DNA of 64,000 nt from an uncultured Prevotellaceae bacterium (GTDB taxonomy: Bacteria > Bacteroidota > Bacteroidia > Bacteroidales > Bacteroidaceae): assembly GCA_947305005.1 (NCBI GenBank), contig CAMZCM010000001.1, forward strand, positions 216,724 to 280,723. Reading direction: 5' to 3'. A program made the translations under genes and the position numbers. The notes under the pieces were generated by a model. It was not told the origin of the DNA. It ran no database searches and saw only the letters and a list, made by a program, of their open reading frames with translations. Each line of letters starts with the position of its first letter. Positions within the stretch are counted from its first letter, which is position 1. Below, one piece after another: positions 57,793-64,000 of this stretch.

Positions 57793-58539
57793 ATGAAGTT
57801 TCTGATCACTCCTATCAAGACTTTTGGCCGCTATCTTCAGTTGATGGCGAAGGTCTTTAGTCGTCCCGAACGTTTCCGTATGTTCTTCAAACAATACATC
57901 ACGGAAATGCAAAAACTCGGTGTTGACAGCATCGGCATTGTCCTGATGATTTCATTCTTCATCGGAGCCGTGATTTGTATTCAGATGAAGGTGAATATCC
58001 AGAGCCCGTGGATGCCTCGTTTCACGACGGGTTACACCACTCGTGAGATTCTGCTCCTTGAGTTCTCATCCAGCATTATGTGTCTTATTCTTGCCGGCAA
58101 GGTGGGTTCCAATATCGCCTCTGAGATTGGCACGATGCGTGTCACTCAGCAGATTGATGCATTGGATATTATGGGGGTTAACTCTGCCTCGTTTCTCATC
58201 CTGCCTAAGATTGCGGGGTTGGTGACCATGATTCCCATCCTTGTCACCTTTTCTATGGTGGCTGGATTTGGTGGTGCTTATGCCATCAGTTTGGCCGGCA
58301 TTCTGACGCCGGAGGATTTGACTTACGGTCTGCAGCACTCATTCAATCAGTGGTTCGTGTGGATGTCCTTTATTAAATCGTTTTTCTTCGCTTATATCAT
58401 CGCCTCGGTGTCAGCTTTCTACGGCTACACGGTGGAAGGAGGTTCCGTAGAGGTCGGTAAGGCTTCCACGGACAGCGTCGTCCATTGTTCCATGCTGATT
58501 CTTTTTGCCGACATCTTCTTGACCCAGATACTCTCATGA
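57793..58539 (+). CDS. mlaE: ABC transporter permease MlaE (phospholipid transport)
   Basis: The permease of the Mla/Mkl-type lipid transport system in the inner membrane. 248 residues with the MlaE fold: the amphipathic start [31 protein letters not shown], the coupling-helix segment [29 protein letters not shown], then [21 protein letters not shown] and [29 protein letters not shown]. The start ATG at 57793 (M-K-F-L-I) is preferred. It overlaps mlaF by 4 bp (ATGA). No MlaD, MlaB or MlaC gene follows, so the remaining components must be elsewhere. Confidence 0.95.
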
Positions 58540-59291
58540 TAGAAATACAGTCTCTCTATAAATCCTTCGAGGACCGAGAAGTTCTCAAAGATATCAATAC
58601 CATTTTCAAGGAAGGTCAGACCAACCTGATTATCGGTCAGTCCGGCTCGGGAAAGACGGTGCTGATGAAATGTATCGTGGGCTTGTTTGAACCGAATCAG
58701 GGCAAGATCCTTTATGACGGACGTGACTTCGTGGCGATGAACAAGAAGGAGAAGGCTTTGCTTCGCCGCGAGATGGGAATGATTTTCCAGTCTGCCGCCC
58801 TCTTCGACAGTATGACGGTCCTTGAGAATGTGATGTTCCCGTTGGACATGTTTTCATCCATGAACCTCGTCGATCGTAAACGTCGTGCACAGCAATGTCT
58901 GGATCGTGTGAACCTCATTGATGCACAGGAGAAGTTCCCCAATGAGCTGTCGGGCGGTATGCAGAAACGTGTTGCCATAGCACGTGCCATCGCTCTGAAT
59001 CCTAAGTATTTGTTCTGCGATGAACCGAACAGCGGCCTCGACCCGAAGACCTCCCTTGTCATTGATGCCCTCATCCACGATATCACTGTGGAGTTCAACA
59101 TGACCACCATCATGAACACCCACGATATGAACTCCGTGATGGGTATTGGTGACAGCATTATTTTCATTAAGGAAGGACATCAGGAATGGACAGGTGACAA
59201 GACGCAGGTCGCCACCTCTGACAATCAAGCCCTCACCGACTTCATCTTCGCCTCCAACCTCTTGAAGAAAGCGCGTCAAGCGTTTGTGTAA
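58536..59291 (+). CDS. mlaF: ABC transporter ATP-binding protein MlaF
   Basis: The ATPase partner of MlaE. The 251-residue protein starts at ATG 58536 ([11 protein letters not shown]), inside the last codon of mlaE. Motifs: IGQSGSGKTVLMK (Walker A), FQSAALFDSMTVLENV (Q-loop), LSGGMQKRVAIARAI (signature), YLFCDEPNSGLDPKTS (Walker B) and NTHDMNSVMGIGD (H-loop). The N-terminal 17 residues of the longest ORF come from mlaE sequence and are not real. Confidence 0.95.
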   Translation: MIEIQSLYKSFEDREVLKDINTIFKEGQTNLIIGQSGSGKTVLMKCIVGLFEPNQGKILYDGRDFVAMNKKEKALLRREMGMIFQSAALFDSMTVLENVMFPLDMFSSMNLVDRKRRAQQCLDRVNLIDAQEKFPNELSGGMQKRVAIARAIALNPKYLFCDEPNSGLDPKTSLVIDALIHDITVEFNMTTIMNTHDMNSVMGIGDSIIFIKEGHQEWTGDKTQVATSDNQALTDFIFASNLLKKARQAFV

Positions 59292-59305
59292 ACTCAGATG
59301 CAAGT

Positions 59306-61270
59306 ATGATTTCCGTAGAACATCTTTCCGTTGAATTCAGTGCCCGTCCGTTGTTCACGGACGTAAGTTTTGTCGTGAATGATCGCGACCGCATTGCGCT
59401 GACGGGCAAGAACGGTGCGGGGAAATCTACACTCCTGAAAATCATAGCTGGACAGCAGGCGCCCACAGAGGGTGTCGTGGCTGTTCCGCGCGATACGTCA
59501 GTTGGCTATCTTCCTCAGGTGATGGAGCTGGCTAACGAACGTACGGTGATGGAGGAGACGTTGCTGGCTTTTGACCATATTCGCGACCTGCAAGCCGACA
59601 TCAATCGCATGAATGCAGAGATGGCTGAGCGTACCGACTATGAGAGTGAGGACTATCTCGCGCTGGTGGATCGCTACACACGTGCTGAAGAGCACTTCCA
59701 GATGATGGGTGGCCTGAACTTCCACGCAGAGGTGGAGCGAACGCTCCTTGGCCTCGGCTTTGAACGTTCTGAATTTGACCGTCCTACTGGCGAGTTGAGT
59801 GGTGGCTGGCGTATGCGTATTGAATTGGCGAAACTGTTGCTTCGTCAGCCCGATGTGCTGTTGCTTGACGAGCCTACCAACCACCTCGACATCGAGAGCA
59901 TCCAGTGGCTGGAACAGTATCTCGTGCAGCGAGCTGGCGCCGTGGTGTTAGTGTCACATGATCGCGCGTTCATTAATAATATAACAAACCGAACACTGGA
60001 AATCTCCTGTGGACGTATTTGGGACTACAAGGTCAAGTACGACGAGTATGTGCAGCTGCGGGCTGAGCGACGCGAACAGCAGTTGCGCGCCTACGAGAAC
60101 CAGCAGAAGGAGATTGCCGACCTCAAGGATTTCATTGAGCGCTTCCGCTATAAGCCTACCAAGGCGGTGCAGGTACAGGAGCGCATCAAACAGCTGAACC
60201 GCATCGTGCCCATCGAAGTGGATGAGGTTGATAACAGCGCCCTTCACCTGAAATTTCCACCTTGCCAGCGCTCAGGCGACTTCCCCTTGATTGTGGAAGA
60301 CCTGCGGAAAGCGTATGGAGAGAAGGAAGTCATCGCCCAAGTGAACCTCACTATTCGTCGTGGTGAGAAGGTGGCATTCGTGGGGCGCAACGGCGAGGGC
60401 AAATCCACGCTCGTGAAATGTATCCTTGGCGAGATACCCTTCGAGGGTAATCTGAAAGTGGGACATAATGCTCAGATCGGTTACTTCGCCCAGAACCAGG
60501 CGCAGCTCCTTGACCCAGAGCTCACGGTCTTCGACACCATTGACCGTGTAGCGCGTGGCGATGTCCGTATGCGCATCCGCGATATCCTCGGAGCCTTCAT
60601 GTTCGGCGGCGAAGCTTCGGACAAGAAGGTGAAAGTGCTGTCGGGTGGAGAACGCTCGCGTCTGGCAATGATCAAGCTCCTCTTGGAGCCCGTTAACTTC
60701 CTTATCCTCGATGAACCCACCAATCACCTTGACATGAAATCCAAGGATGTGCTGAAGGAGGCCATTGCTGCCTTTGATGGAACCGTCATCGTGGTCAGTC
60801 ATGACCGTCAGTTCCTCGACGGCCTGGTAGAGCGTGTCTATAGCTTCGGCGGCGGGCGTGTTCGTGAGCATATCGGAGGCATCTATGATTGGTTAAAGGA
60901 CTCTCCCCCCGCCCTCCCTTGTAGGGAGGGAGCAAATACCGCTGCTAATGGGAACCAAAGCCACTCTGGAAGTGTGACTGCTCCCTCCCTACAAGGGAGG
61001 GCGGGGGGAGAGTCTTCCTATTCCTCCTGGGAAGCCCAGAAGGCTGCCGCCCGCCAGCGCAAGAAACTGGAAAAAGCGGTCAGCGAGGCTGAGGAAAAGG
61101 TGGCGCAACTCGAGGCTGCCGTTCATCTTCTCGAAGACCAGCTTGCTACCCCCGAGGGTTCTTCCGATACCGCTCTCTATGAGAAATATGCTCGCTTCAA
61201 ACAACAACTCGAGGCTGCTGAGGAGGAATGGATGACCGCCTCCGAAGCCCTTGCCGATACAACATTTTGA
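59306..61270 (+). CDS. ABC-F family ATPase carrying an in-frame palindromic element
   Basis: A soluble duplicated ABC protein acting at the ribosome (translation or antibiotic protection). Two ATPase cassettes are complete: LTGKNGAGKSTLLKI with LSGGWRMRIELAKLLL and LLLDEPTNHLD in the first (residues 1-235), and FVGRNGEGKSTLVK with LSGGERSRLAMIKLLL and LILDEPTNHLD in the second (about 320-530). The inter-domain linker is the long helical arm at 240-300. Between cassette 2 and the C-terminal coiled coil (about 572-640) lies a perfect 36-bp inverted repeat element (60899-61014), read as D-S-P-P-A-L-P-C-R-E-G-A ... A-P-S-L-Q-G-R-A-G-G-E-S with no frameshift or stop. The 654-residue length is close to normal for the group. 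Confidence 0.92.
   Translation: MISVEHLSVEFSARPLFTDVSFVVNDRDRIALTGKNGAGKSTLLKIIAGQQAPTEGVVAVPRDTSVGYLPQVMELANERTVMEETLLAFDHIRDLQADINRMNAEMAERTDYESEDYLALVDRYTRAEEHFQMMGGLNFHAEVERTLLGLGFERSEFDRPTGELSGGWRMRIELAKLLLRQPDVLLLDEPTNHLDIESIQWLEQYLVQRAGAVVLVSHDRAFINNITNRTLEISCGRIWDYKVKYDEYVQLRAERREQQLRAYENQQKEIADLKDFIERFRYKPTKAVQVQERIKQLNRIVPIEVDEVDNSALHLKFPPCQRSGDFPLIVEDLRKAYGEKEVIAQVNLTIRRGEKVAFVGRNGEGKSTLVKCILGEIPFEGNLKVGHNAQIGYFAQNQAQLLDPELTVFDTIDRVARGDVRMRIRDILGAFMFGGEASDKKVKVLSGGERSRLAMIKLLLEPVNFLILDEPTNHLDMKSKDVLKEAIAAFDGTVIVVSHDRQFLDGLVERVYSFGGGRVREHIGGIYDWLKDSPPALPCREGANTAANGNQSHSGSVTAPSLQGRAGGESSYSSWEAQKAAARQRKKLEKAVSEAEEKVAQLEAAVHLLEDQLATPEGSSDTALYEKYARFKQQLEAAEEEWMTASEALADTTF
60899..61014. 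repeat. 116-bp palindromic element with perfect 36-bp terminal inverted repeats, in frame in the ABC-F gene
   Basis: The arms 60899-60934 and 60979-61014 are exact reverse complements over 36 bp. Each arm also folds on itself (CCCTCCCT/AGGGAGGG). A 44-bp centre separates them. The reading frame is open through the whole element. The first 20 bp of a second copy lie at 63960-64000 in the U32 gene, in the same frame. Confidence 0.85.
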
Positions 61271-61291
61271 CTTAAAAAACATCTTACATAA

Positions 61292-62239
61292 ATGCCTTTA
61301 ACCCTTCCTGACAGGCTTCCTGCCATCTCCCTTCTTGAGAAAGAAAACATCTTCGTGATGGACACTTCACGCGCCTCCACGCAGGACATCCGTCCCTTGC
61401 GTATCGTGGTGCTGAACCTGATGCCGATCAAGATTACTACTGAGACCGACCTCGTGCGTGTGCTCTCCAATACGCCCTTGCAGCTCGACCTCACGTTCAT
61501 GAAGATCAAGAGTCACACCTCTAAGAACACGCCCATCGAGCACATGAAAGCGTTCTATAAGGACTTCGAACTCCTCCGCTCTCAGAAGTTTGACGGCATG
61601 ATCATCACAGGTGCTCCTGTTGAGCACCTTGAGTTCGACGATGTGACTTACTGGGATGAGATGACAGACATCTTTGACTGGGCTCGCACACATGTCACCT
61701 CTACGCTGTATATCTGTTGGGCTGCACAAGCAGGTCTTTATTATCATTATGGTGTGCCCAAGTACCCACTGCCTGCCAAGATGTTCGGTATCTTCCCGCA
61801 GACACCCTTGCTGCCCAGCCTTCCCATTTTTCGCGGCTTCGACGATGTCTTCCAGATGCCGCACAGCCGCCACACGGAGATCCGTCGCGAGGACATCGAA
61901 GCAGTTACACTTCCCGAGGGCTCTCCCGAGGGTGTCCACCCCCTCACCATCATCGCTGAAAGCGAGGAGTCAGGCGTCAGCATCGTGATGGCGCGTGGTG
62001 GACGTGAATTCTTCATCACGGGTCATGCCGAGTACTCCCCGCTGACCCTCGACACCGAGTATCGTCGCGACCTCGGCAAGGGCCTCCCCATCGACAAGCC
62101 TCGCCATTATTATCGCAACGATGACCCCGACCAAGGACCGCTTGTCAGCTGGCGTGCTCACGCCAACCTGCTCTTCACCAATTGGCTCAACTACTACGTC
62201 TATCAGGAGACTCCTTACGATATCGAAGATATTCACTAA
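61292..62239 (+). CDS. metA: Homoserine O-acyltransferase MetA (MetAS)
   Basis: Acylates homoserine (acetyl- or succinyl-CoA) in methionine synthesis. The 315-residue protein has the family signatures PLRIVVLNLMPIKI with the Lys near residue 46, TGAPVEHLEFDDVTYW, LYICWAAQAGLYYHYGV (nucleophilic Cys near 142), PRHTEIRREDI-like SRHTEIRREDIE, and FFITGHAEYSPLTLDTEY (catalytic His/Glu). Between REDIE and the next strand lies an extra stretch L-P-E-G-S-P-E-G encoded by a 30-bp repeat module (61904-61933), almost identical to one in the U32 gene. Relatives normally have a shorter loop here. Confidence 0.95.
   Translation: MPLTLPDRLPAISLLEKENIFVMDTSRASTQDIRPLRIVVLNLMPIKITTETDLVRVLSNTPLQLDLTFMKIKSHTSKNTPIEHMKAFYKDFELLRSQKFDGMIITGAPVEHLEFDDVTYWDEMTDIFDWARTHVTSTLYICWAAQAGLYYHYGVPKYPLPAKMFGIFPQTPLLPSLPIFRGFDDVFQMPHSRHTEIRREDIEAVTLPEGSPEGVHPLTIIAESEESGVSIVMARGGREFFITGHAEYSPLTLDTEYRRDLGKGLPIDKPRHYYRNDDPDQGPLVSWRAHANLLFTNWLNYYVYQETPYDIEDIH
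61904..61933. repeat. 30-bp VTxPxGSPxG module in metA
   Basis: It matches 27 of 30 bases of 63039-63068 in the U32 gene and about 24 of 30 in mrp (40888-40917). All three copies are read in the same frame: V-T-L-P-E-G-S-P-E-G here, V-T-V-P-E-G-S-P-E-G in U32 and V-T-V-P-D-G-S-P-S-G in mrp. Confidence 0.75.
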
Positions 62240-62240
62240 A

Positions 62241-62357
62241 AATAATGAAAAGTGAAAAGTGAAAAATTCATTTTTCTTGTGCAGGCTGTAGGAATAGCTC
62301 ATTGCTTGAGGAAATCTTTATTTTTCATTCTTTCACTTTTCACTTTTCACTTAATTC
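62241..62357. repeat. Inverted AAAGTGA / TTTTCAC heptamers between metA and the U32 gene
   Basis: GTGAAAA words at 62247-62263 are inverted relative to TTTTCAC words at 62325-62351. The latter end 6 bp before the U32 ATG. The pair could form a long hairpin of about 20 bp; the space between holds no ORF. This is the whole intergenic gap. Confidence 0.65.
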
Positions 62358-64000
62358 ATGAGAACGATTGAGCTCCTTTCTCCCGCCCGTAATCTGGAGT
62401 GCGGCATCGAAGCCGTTCGCCACGGAGCCGATGCGGTCTATATCGGTGCGCCCCGTTTTGGCGCCCGTGTGGCTGCAGGCAACAGCGTGGAGGATATCGC
62501 GGAGCTCGTGCGCTTTGCTCATCCCTTCGGTGTCCGTATCTATGTCACGGTGAACACCTTATTATATAATGAGGAGTTGGCAGAGGTCGATGCACTGATT
62601 GGGGAATTGCAAGCAGCGGGCGTGGATGCTCTGATTGTTCAGGACCCACGTCTGGTAGAATTGAATCGTGGACGTATTCCCCTTCACGCTTCCACACAGA
62701 TGGACAACCGTACCATCGACGATGTTCGTGCGCGTCAGGCCGCTGGCTACACGCAGACCGTCCTTGCCCGCGAGCTTTCTTTGGACGATATTCGTGCCAT
62801 CCACGCTGCTGTCCCTGAGATGCCGTTGGAGGCTTTTGTCCACGGAGCGCTCTGTGTCAGCTATAGCGGTCGTTGCTATGCCAGTGAGTACTGTTTCGGC
62901 CGTAGCGCCAATCGCGGTGAGTGCGCCCAATTCTGTCGCTTGCCCTTTGACCTCATTGATGCAGATGGTAAGATCGTTACCGTTCCCTCGGGTTCTGTTA
63001 CGGTTCCCTCGGGTTCTGTTACGGTTCCCGAGGGTTCTGTTACGGTTCCCGAGGGTTCTCCCGAGGGTAGTGAGGCCCTTCGCCAGCGTCACCTCCTCTC
63101 CCTAAAGGATATGAACCGCTCCGCAGACCTCGAAGCCATGATGGACGCAGGCATCACCTCCTTCAAGATAGAAGGGCGCCTGAAGGATGTCGCTTATGTC
63201 AAGAATATCACCGCTTACTACCGTCAGCGCATTGACGCCATCATAGCTCGCCGCTCGGACGACTACTGCCGCTCTTCCTTTGGCGCCAGCACCGTCACCT
63301 TCACGCCCAATCCGCTGAAGAGCTTTAATCGCGGCTTCACCGACTATTATCTTCATGGTCGCACATCTGCTCCTGTCTATCAGCCTTTTACGCCTAAGTC
63401 TCTTGGCGAGCCGGTGGGACATGTGAAAGAGATTGTGTCCTTTGGCAACCCCTCGCTCTCTGTGGCTGGAACAGCTACCTTCGCTAATGGCGACGGCCTC
63501 TGTTTCTTCGCGCCCGACGGCCATCTGCAGGGCTTTCGTGTGAATCGCATTGACCAGCAAGGGCGACTCTTCCCAGCCGATGCCTCTGTGCTTACGAAGC
63601 TGGCGAAGGGAACAGCGCTCTATCGTAACTACGATGCCGCTTTCGAGCATCAGCTGTCGCGCCCCACTGCCGACCGCCGCATCGCTGTCAGTTGGTTGTT
63701 GGAAGATACAGAGGATGGGTTCCGGCTCACCCTTTCTCTGATACCCAATGGCATCAGAGAAAGGGTGAGCACATTCTCCTATCCTCACGAACTCGCACGC
63801 ACTCCGCAAGCTGACAATATTCGTCGGCAACTCATGCGGCTCGGCGACACACCCTATACCTGCACCGAAGAAGATGTGGAAATCCGCCTCTCCGACAACT
63901 GGTTTATCCCCGCTTCTGTGCTGGGTGAGTGGAGAAGGCAGGTGGTAGGGGAATTTCAAGACTCTCCCCCCGCCCTCCCTATCAGGGAGGGGGTGAATAC
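62358..64000 (+). CDS. U32 family peptidase / collagenase-like protein, 3' partial
   Basis: The ATG at 62358 (M-R-T-I-E-L-L-S-P-A-R-N) starts an open frame that runs beyond the window. U32 signatures: IELLSPARN, HGADAVYIGAPRFGAR, YVTVNTLLYNEEL, GVDALIVQDP, PLHASTQMDN, VLARELSLDDI, FVHGALCVSYSGRCYASEYCFGRSANRGECAQFCR with the cysteines of a [4Fe-4S]-like site, and LLSLKDMN with FKIEGRLKD. Related enzymes hydroxylate tRNA or 23S rRNA (TrhP, RlhA) or act as proteases; the present one resembles the long Bacteroidota form with a C-terminal extension. It contains three foreign-looking insertions: four 21-bp repeats (62976-63067), an 18-bp inverted repeat (63725-63770) and the start of a palindromic element (from 63960). 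Confidence 0.9.
   Translation, partial: MRTIELLSPARNLECGIEAVRHGADAVYIGAPRFGARVAAGNSVEDIAELVRFAHPFGVRIYVTVNTLLYNEELAEVDALIGELQAAGVDALIVQDPRLVELNRGRIPLHASTQMDNRTIDDVRARQAAGYTQTVLARELSLDDIRAIHAAVPEMPLEAFVHGALCVSYSGRCYASEYCFGRSANRGECAQFCRLPFDLIDADGKIVTVPSGSVTVPSGSVTVPEGSVTVPEGSPEGSEALRQRHLLSLKDMNRSADLEAMMDAGITSFKIEGRLKDVAYVKNITAYYRQRIDAIIARRSDDYCRSSFGASTVTFTPNPLKSFNRGFTDYYLHGRTSAPVYQPFTPKSLGEPVGHVKEIVSFGNPSLSVAGTATFANGDGLCFFAPDGHLQGFRVNRIDQQGRLFPADASVLTKLAKGTALYRNYDAAFEHQLSRPTADRRIAVSWLLEDTEDGFRLTLSLIPNGIRERVSTFSYPHELARTPQADNIRRQLMRLGDTPYTCTEEDVEIRLSDNWFIPASVLGEWRRQVVGEFQDSPPALPIREGVN
62976..63067. repeat. Four 21-bp tandem repeats inside the U32 gene, ending in the 30-bp module
   Basis: Units GTTACxGTTCCCxxGGGTTCT at 62976, 62997, 63018 and 63039, each 21 bp (7 codons, V-T-V-P-x-G-S). 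Units 1-2 contain CCCTCGGG and units 3-4 its reverse complement CCCGAGGG; a last CCCGAGGG is at 63060-63067. It sits after I-D-A-D-G-K-I and before the H-L-L-S-L-K-D core motif. Confidence 0.85.
63725..63770. repeat. Perfect 18-bp inverted repeat in the U32 gene
   Basis: GCTCACCCTTTCTCTGAT (63725-63742) and its reverse complement (63753-63770) enclose 10 bp. The frame stays open (R-L-T-L-S-L-I-P-N-G-I-R-E-R-V-S). It is a second, unrelated palindrome in this gene. Confidence 0.8.
63960..64000. repeat. Left end of a second copy of the palindromic element, in the U32 gene
   Basis: GACTCTCCCCCCGCCCTCCCT (from 63960) is the same as the first 21 bases of the element at 60899, followed by a variant stem loop (ATC in place of TGT) and AGGGAGGG. 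The frame is the same: D-S-P-P-A-L-P-I-R-E-G-V-N. The rest lies beyond the window. Confidence 0.8.

Follow-up and report, generated by a model that had tools for sequence, protein, structure and literature searches.

In REPs, GGAG is an alternative to the GTAG tetranucleotide. REP dimers of the GTAG and CGTC superfamilies were described by Di Nocera et al. in 2013 (PMC3733652). In the available portion of PMC3733652, REPs are short one-sided stem-loops arranged as facing dimers, most of them with spacers of 20 to 100 bp. The same portion places dimers inside genes as well, including repair genes such as uvrA and DNA polymerase I, states that REP termini may supply stop codons and that CGTC types have no known transposase, and identifies some dimers with the Rickettsia elements RPE-4 and RPE-6. 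Inverted REP pairs are called REPINs in the excerpts of PMC6006769, which also describe the tnpAREP genes of subclass 2.6 of Bacteroidetes, tyrosine transposase genes flanked by atypical hairpins with copies elsewhere; as far as these excerpts go, REP-like repeats are already known as such in this phylum.

Here we analyze a repeat found in a 64,000-nucleotide stretch of the genome of an uncultured Prevotellaceae bacterium (the window). Porphyromonas gingivalis belongs to the same order as this source organism. Its BrickBuilt MITE is, like our repeat, a short non-autonomous family but is always intergenic according to the available text of PMC4596501, whereas the repeat described here lies mostly in or at genes. 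Rickettsia palindromic elements, as described in part of PMC10969869, share with it in-frame palindromic repeats in unrelated genes and a recurring peptide; in contrast, they belong to another phylum, and in our case single arms recur rather than the whole element (the two were compared by description). The coding palindromes of Nematomorpha mitochondria likewise consist of coding inverted repeats whose arms change together, but in the excerpts of PMC6649704 both arms encode host residues specific to each site, while the arms considered here form one repeat family. The closest known kind of repeat is the REP dimer. Among the open-licence literature matches listed, no title pointed to such a repeat in genes of Bacteroidales. 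Our repeat shares the layout of these dimers but has another tag, is located mostly in genes or at gene starts, and has middles made of host sequence in several enzymes.

A preliminary description of the window had reported that an ABC-F gene contains, in frame, a 116-bp element whose 36-bp inverted ends are perfect, and that the start of a second copy is read as the same peptide in the same frame of a U32 gene. Coordinates and open frame agree with the first statement and the U32 frame with the second (Table 1). The ABC-F open frame spans 654 amino acids and reads through both arms (...DWLKDSPPALPCREGANTAANGNQSHSGSVTAPSLQGRAGGESSYSSWEAQK...), which are 36 nt each, 100% complementary, and separated by a 44-nt spacer. 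The element is located between the second ABC domain and the C-terminal stretch of the protein, where PF16326 matches residues 586 to 644 only below its cut-off. The outer bases of the middle are similar to the inner tails of other arms and the remainder is unshared; a related middle is present in the ABC-F ortholog of one relative, G084. When folded as RNA, the segment reaches −100 kcal/mol compared to a shuffle mean of −55 (n = 200; z = −11.0), with none of the 200 shuffles as stable, and an Rfam scan of positions 58000 to 64000 returned no family at threshold. By eye, 8 of the 29 extracted ABC-F linkers, the source genome included, carry GACTC- or GACCC-type arms, and between the source genome and G040 the loop sequence differs on both arms together. 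In sister species (G120, G114, G135, and G105; loci L147, L148, L152, and L173), the ABC-F linker carries a different palindrome, of the GGCCCCC... type.

Table 1. Features of the two repeat-bearing genes in the window.
Feature	Position	Strand	Remark
ABC-F ATPase gene, element-bearing	59306..61270	+	PF00005 twice, PF12848
ABC-F left arm, read DSPPALPCREGA	60899..60934	+	36 mirrored bases out of the ~50-base repeat unit
ABC-F middle, 44 bp	60935..60978	+	read NTAANGNQSHSGSVT including arm ends
ABC-F right arm, inverted copy of the repeat	60979..61014	-	gene-sense reading APSLQGRAGGES
U32 peptidase gene, truncated by window end	62358..64000	+	C-terminus at the start of contig C10, same assembly
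U32 left arm of second pair, same frame as ABC-F copy (DSPPALPIREGVN)	63960..64000	+	sequence and frame

The U32 frame reads ...EFQDSPPALPIREGVN up to the end of the window, where contig C1 ends as well. Contig C10 opens with a full element that continues in frame into the conserved U32 C-terminus (DSPPALPIREGVNTLSEESDCNSGKVTAPSLIGRAGGES...APLMTCRHCLRFALGYC). The contig break at position 64000 falls inside the repeat, and the end of C1 and positions 1 to 120 of locus L049 are alike but not identical. We infer from the sequence that the two contig ends belong together; their differences may reflect distinct strains or copies.

Other repeats are present in the same region. An 18-bp perfect inverted repeat with a 10-bp loop is located in the U32 coding sequence (63725 to 63770), in a stretch of about native length. 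No further copy of its 14-base core was found in the source-genome stretches searched, and it may have arisen by conversion of host codons into a palindrome. A further in-frame repeat is based on CCCGAGGG/CCCTCGGG, is read as VPEGS or PEGSPEG, and occurs at positions 62985 to 63067, 61913 to 61932, and 61151, as well as in L036 and L039. It is tandem in U32 and AroE and is also found in MetA and ABC-F; CCCGAGGG has 29 sites in the source-genome stretches when strands are counted separately. Last, a 19-bp inverted repeat (TGAAAAGTGAAAAGTGAAA) lies in the metA-U32 gap (62246 to 62352).

When queried by BLAST with the element or its arms, the source assembly (2.45 Mb, 85.6% complete) returned 95 matches. 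Twenty-seven regions were fetched around them, and 26 of these together with the window, 406,659 bases in total, were analyzed, revealing ~40 unrelated sites with the repeat. Among the 41 entries examined (the U32 copy was entered twice), 21 fall within genes, 17 span a gene start, and 3 are in intergenic DNA (L043, L045, and L050:7039); site classes and frames are hand counts from open frames. In the start-bridging layout, the left arm is upstream, the start codon lies in the middle, and the right arm is fused to the N-terminus, in genes that we take to be folD, aroE, ubiE, argB, and leuA. Gene names come from Pfam only for ABC-F and U32; the others are our own presumed identifications.

The profile built from 54 source-genome arms consists of an outer purine (53 of 54 arms), GACTC-like bases, a run of C, a hairpin CCCTCCCT-loop-AGGGAGGG, and a tail. 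The outer edge is sharp and the inner tail fades near position 49, the unit being ~50 bp long. Its stem can be drawn with 8 bp and a 3-base loop or with 7 bp and a 5-base loop. By eye, the middles vary in length and sequence among source-genome copies, and neither direct repeats nor a target duplication were seen beside the arms. Inverted duplication of the flanks was also considered and rejected since the outer flanks of the two arms are unlike by eye. A palindrome could in principle form with no mobility at all if host codons were made palindromic in place by template switching (compare the case in the available part of PMC6649704), and the separate 18-bp inverted repeat of U32 may be such a case. 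However, the same arm is present at ~40 unrelated sites and adds residues relative to orthologs, and we consider this origin of the arms highly improbable. As an explanation of how arms stay alike, template switching may apply.

To describe arm orientation, loci were scanned with a 46-bp arm profile, arms within 300 bp of each other being treated as a neighbor pair. The 27 source-genome stretches contain 74 arms; 32 of 33 neighbor pairs have GACTC pointing outward and one is tandem. Nine of the 74 arms have no partner within 300 bp, one of them being cut by a contig end and some having decayed partners. In 157 loci of relatives (1.32 Mb), 58 arms were detected in 26 loci, and all 21 distinct pairs are outward; 16 of the 58 arms have no partner within 300 bp, of which one is probably double-counted (L068 and L170). 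By arm count, 8 of these 21 pairs come from loci L059 to L065, which were fetched through a whole-element match, a choice favoring outward pairs; the remaining loci were fetched for ABC-F, LeuA, or Y1_Tnp. Overall, 53 of 54 neighbor pairs are outward and none is inward (p about 2e-16), and the gap between profile matches is 19 to 98 bp. Independent insertion of single arms, with pairs retained through masking of each arm by its complement in mRNA or DNA, would account for partnerless arms and for the right-arm-only LeuA forms (P0007, P0016, and G018) and mixed-subfamily pairs considered below. Yet an inward pair is equally complementary; selection for complementarity alone therefore fails to explain 53 outward pairs against no inward one, and we regard this scenario as rather unlikely.

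The facing, short-spacer layout, seen in 53 of 54 pairs with gaps of 19 to 98 bp, is common to our repeat and REP dimers. The tag differs: in the 54-arm profile it is GACTC and not GTAG or CGTC. No GTAG tag stands beside the hairpin, the outer end being purine-GACTC, and the CGTC (or TGTC/CCTC) tag, as defined in the available text of PMC3733652, is absent at the ends of the profile. CGTC REPs have an 8- to 9-bp stem and a loop of 4 to 5 bases, compared to 8 bp plus 3 or 7 bp plus 5 here. REPs are mainly intergenic according to the same text, while our copies are mostly in genes or bridge a gene start. Furthermore, that portion of PMC3733652 contains no description of REP spacers as host codons, whereas the middles here are host sequence in several enzymes.

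Comparison with homologs showed that, in LeuA, UvrA, and Mfd, the aligned stretch between the arms is conserved host sequence. In LeuA (16 homologs aligned out of 120 listed), the source protein has YVFELLDSLKDL between the arms and the arm-free P0067 has YVFKLMDSLATL. At the DNA level, 25 of the 30 fetched LeuA loci matched the search pattern; by eye, 9 of them have both arms, 14 have no recognizable arm, G018 has the right arm only, and G048 has a left-arm-like stretch. The UvrA middle SHTLQWLLGLDT corresponds to SHTLQWLLGLET in P0312, which is without recognizable arms (best 120 homologs listed), and its counterparts are SHTLAFLNG in P0303 and SYTVRYLLG in P0319, both also without recognizable arms. 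In Mfd, for which 12 distinct segments were matched, a stretch consisting of LIDAQTFE and FKRIEL lies between the arms; the counterpart in P0185 has no recognizable arms, and P0164 has a decayed right arm at most. The source LeuC protein exceeds 10 of the 15 other matched forms by 24 residues, matches having been obtained at 16 of 30 loci; its middle is of native length but of different sequence. Against PDB sequences, UvrA residues 579 to 640 were left unaligned. The best PDB sequence match of a TonB receptor ends at the left arm; this possible host-middle case is our reading alone and was left out of the count. The predicted LeuA structure has a mean pLDDT of 50.6, too low to use; values below 50 for the arms and 86 for middle residues 201 to 210 are a hint only.

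Because LeuA, UvrA, and Mfd have host sequence between the arms, the recurring entity is the arm and not the 116-bp element. The latter is no fixed unit, its 44-bp middle being unshared by the other source-genome copies by eye. The preliminary description's proposal of a Bacteroidota counterpart to Rickettsia palindromic elements stands insofar as an in-frame repeat, predicted to be translated, occurs in many unrelated genes, and falls with respect to the 116-bp unit. It had also suggested a comparison with relatives, and insertion-free orthologs do exist.

The leuD-leuA junction differs from these cases. The two genes overlap in G095, G119, and G055, stand apart in G000, G040, G133, G120, G114, and G135 (6 of 25 matched rows), and have the appearance of a decayed copy between them in G043 and G016. 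In the source genome, the left arm provides LeuD with its last residues and stop codon, and the middle has no clear native counterpart. Therefore, at this junction the data favor insertion as a single block, that is, of a MITE or an RPE-like element that measures ~116 bp and brings its own middle. The perfect 36-bp ends in ABC-F, the loops shared within pairs (below), the related middle in G084, and the partial conservation of arm tails also agree with a block; but source-genome middles differ in length and sequence, those of LeuA, UvrA, and Mfd are host sequence, and one-arm LeuA forms exist. As a general account, block insertion appears unlikely.

Arm states differ among near-identical LeuA proteins, which indicates recent turnover. 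Outside the segment, G133, P0007, and G135 share 99.2 to 99.4% identity; the first has both arms, the second just the right one, and the third none. In a second group (98.5 to 99.6% identity outside the segment), G120 has both arms, P0016 just the right one, its segment reading TYVFQLLDSIKDLI, and P0009 two arms of another subfamily. In both comparisons, the left arm contributes 16 extra residues (48 bp). Such differences could be due to exchange of alleles between species, the insertions themselves being old and present mobility small. Between G133 and G135 (L178 and L195), the middle differs along with the arms: 34 of 47 aligned bases agree (72%), against 98.2% identity in the longest flanking block (1,080 bp). 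The LeuA DNA of the two is 98% identical, its one short diverged patch lying at the arm-bearing segment; judging from this alignment, the difference probably reflects exchange with another LeuA allele rather than a clean insertion. On the other hand, G120 and P0009 share the same NYVFQLLDSIKDLI middle but bear arms of different subfamilies on either side of it, and ~40 sites in one genome compared to no match in 44 of 81 genomes imply spread at some time. Allele exchange as the whole explanation is improbable.

Arms within a pair tend to have equal loops. This was the case in 11 of 17 legible pairs, one of which, in L050, is ~400 bp wide, against 5.7 expected (p = 0.0004; 200,000 shuffles). 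Uncommon loops were equal in 4 pairs against 0.41 expected (p = 0.0001; 200,000 shuffles). Mixed-subfamily pairs also exist, for example, in LeuA of the source genome, and fit separate arrivals.

Reading frames of the left arms inside genes are biased, as the preliminary description had anticipated for coding copies: by hand count, 13 of 18 are read as DSPPALP, 4 as TLPPPSL, and 1 as LSPRPP [P(at least 13 at one third) = 0.0009; damaged arms of L055 excluded]. The accompanying suggestion that the left arm had evolved one special open frame was not borne out. The first 45 bases of the consensus left arm are open in all three forward frames, those of the ABC-F copy in two, and all three frames are found in real genes. 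On the basis of these open frames, ribosomes are predicted to read arms in genes as additional peptide.

At E 1e-6, the element matches 37 of 81 genomes of the genus, source included, and 44 have no match; this distribution excludes the assembly artefact that the preliminary description had named as a risk. In the family, matches were found in 20 of 301 genomes drawn, belonging to 6 of 30 genera. The eight closest named records by ABC-F (77 to 85% identity) are Bacteroidales, Bacteroidaceae, or Prevotellaceae assemblies, two of them with rumen and two with a deer host in the title. Several candidate movers were considered. A tyrosine transposase in the source assembly (85.6% complete) was rejected, as the sole Y1_Tnp match, in L031, is a false one to a cytidylate kinase that Pfam scores barely above the cut-off. 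According to hand-compiled genome lists, Y1_Tnp (at least 37 bits) is not associated with the repeat (p = 0.53; found in 4 of the 37 genomes with the repeat and 8 of the 44 without it), and a reverse transcriptase, present in 7 of 37 and 15 of 44 genomes (p = 0.14), was rejected as well. No arms were found in 12 loci around the strongest Y1 matches. Compared by description with the tnpAREP subclass 2.6, or RAYT, hairpins in the excerpts of PMC6006769, the repeat thus differs in lacking a Y1_Tnp association across the 81 genomes. No parent transposon was found in the 27 source-genome stretches read. Carriage by phages was rejected in view of no exact 21-base match in viral_contigs and no blastn match at 1e-5 in a phage collection.

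Our preferred reading, to which we assign a probability of roughly one half, is that the element is a facing pair of ~50-bp hairpin repeats, two copies of which joined in one event and were kept where both read in frame. Two copies would join opposite strands of a target 20 to 100 bp apart in a single event, a twin insertion, leaving host codons in the loop between the facing copies. Copies that break the frame would be lost by selection, and flexible peptides rich in Pro, Gly, and Ser would be tolerated as disordered linkers. The arms could afterwards be kept alike by hairpin-stem repair or conversion. Twin joining is the simplest account because it covers the outward pairs, host-codon middles, sharp outer edge, fading inner tail, and shared loops. 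That a mobile repeat enters genes in this manner, with both copies in frame around host codons, we propose only tentatively; that a mobile repeat rewrites proteins without breaking them is likely.

To our knowledge, the question whether the REP dimer or its single units move has not been resolved in every family. Because host codons record the sequence present between the arms before insertion, the question of dimer versus unit becomes testable here. If correct, twin insertion would be a mode of entry distinct from that of transposons inserting as a single block, and would continually supply conserved bacterial enzymes with paired loop insertions. The paired in-frame insertions of enzymes such as LeuA, LeuC, UvrA, and Mfd are relevant to the origin of protein loops and N-terminal extensions, as well as to gene prediction and domain models in this group.
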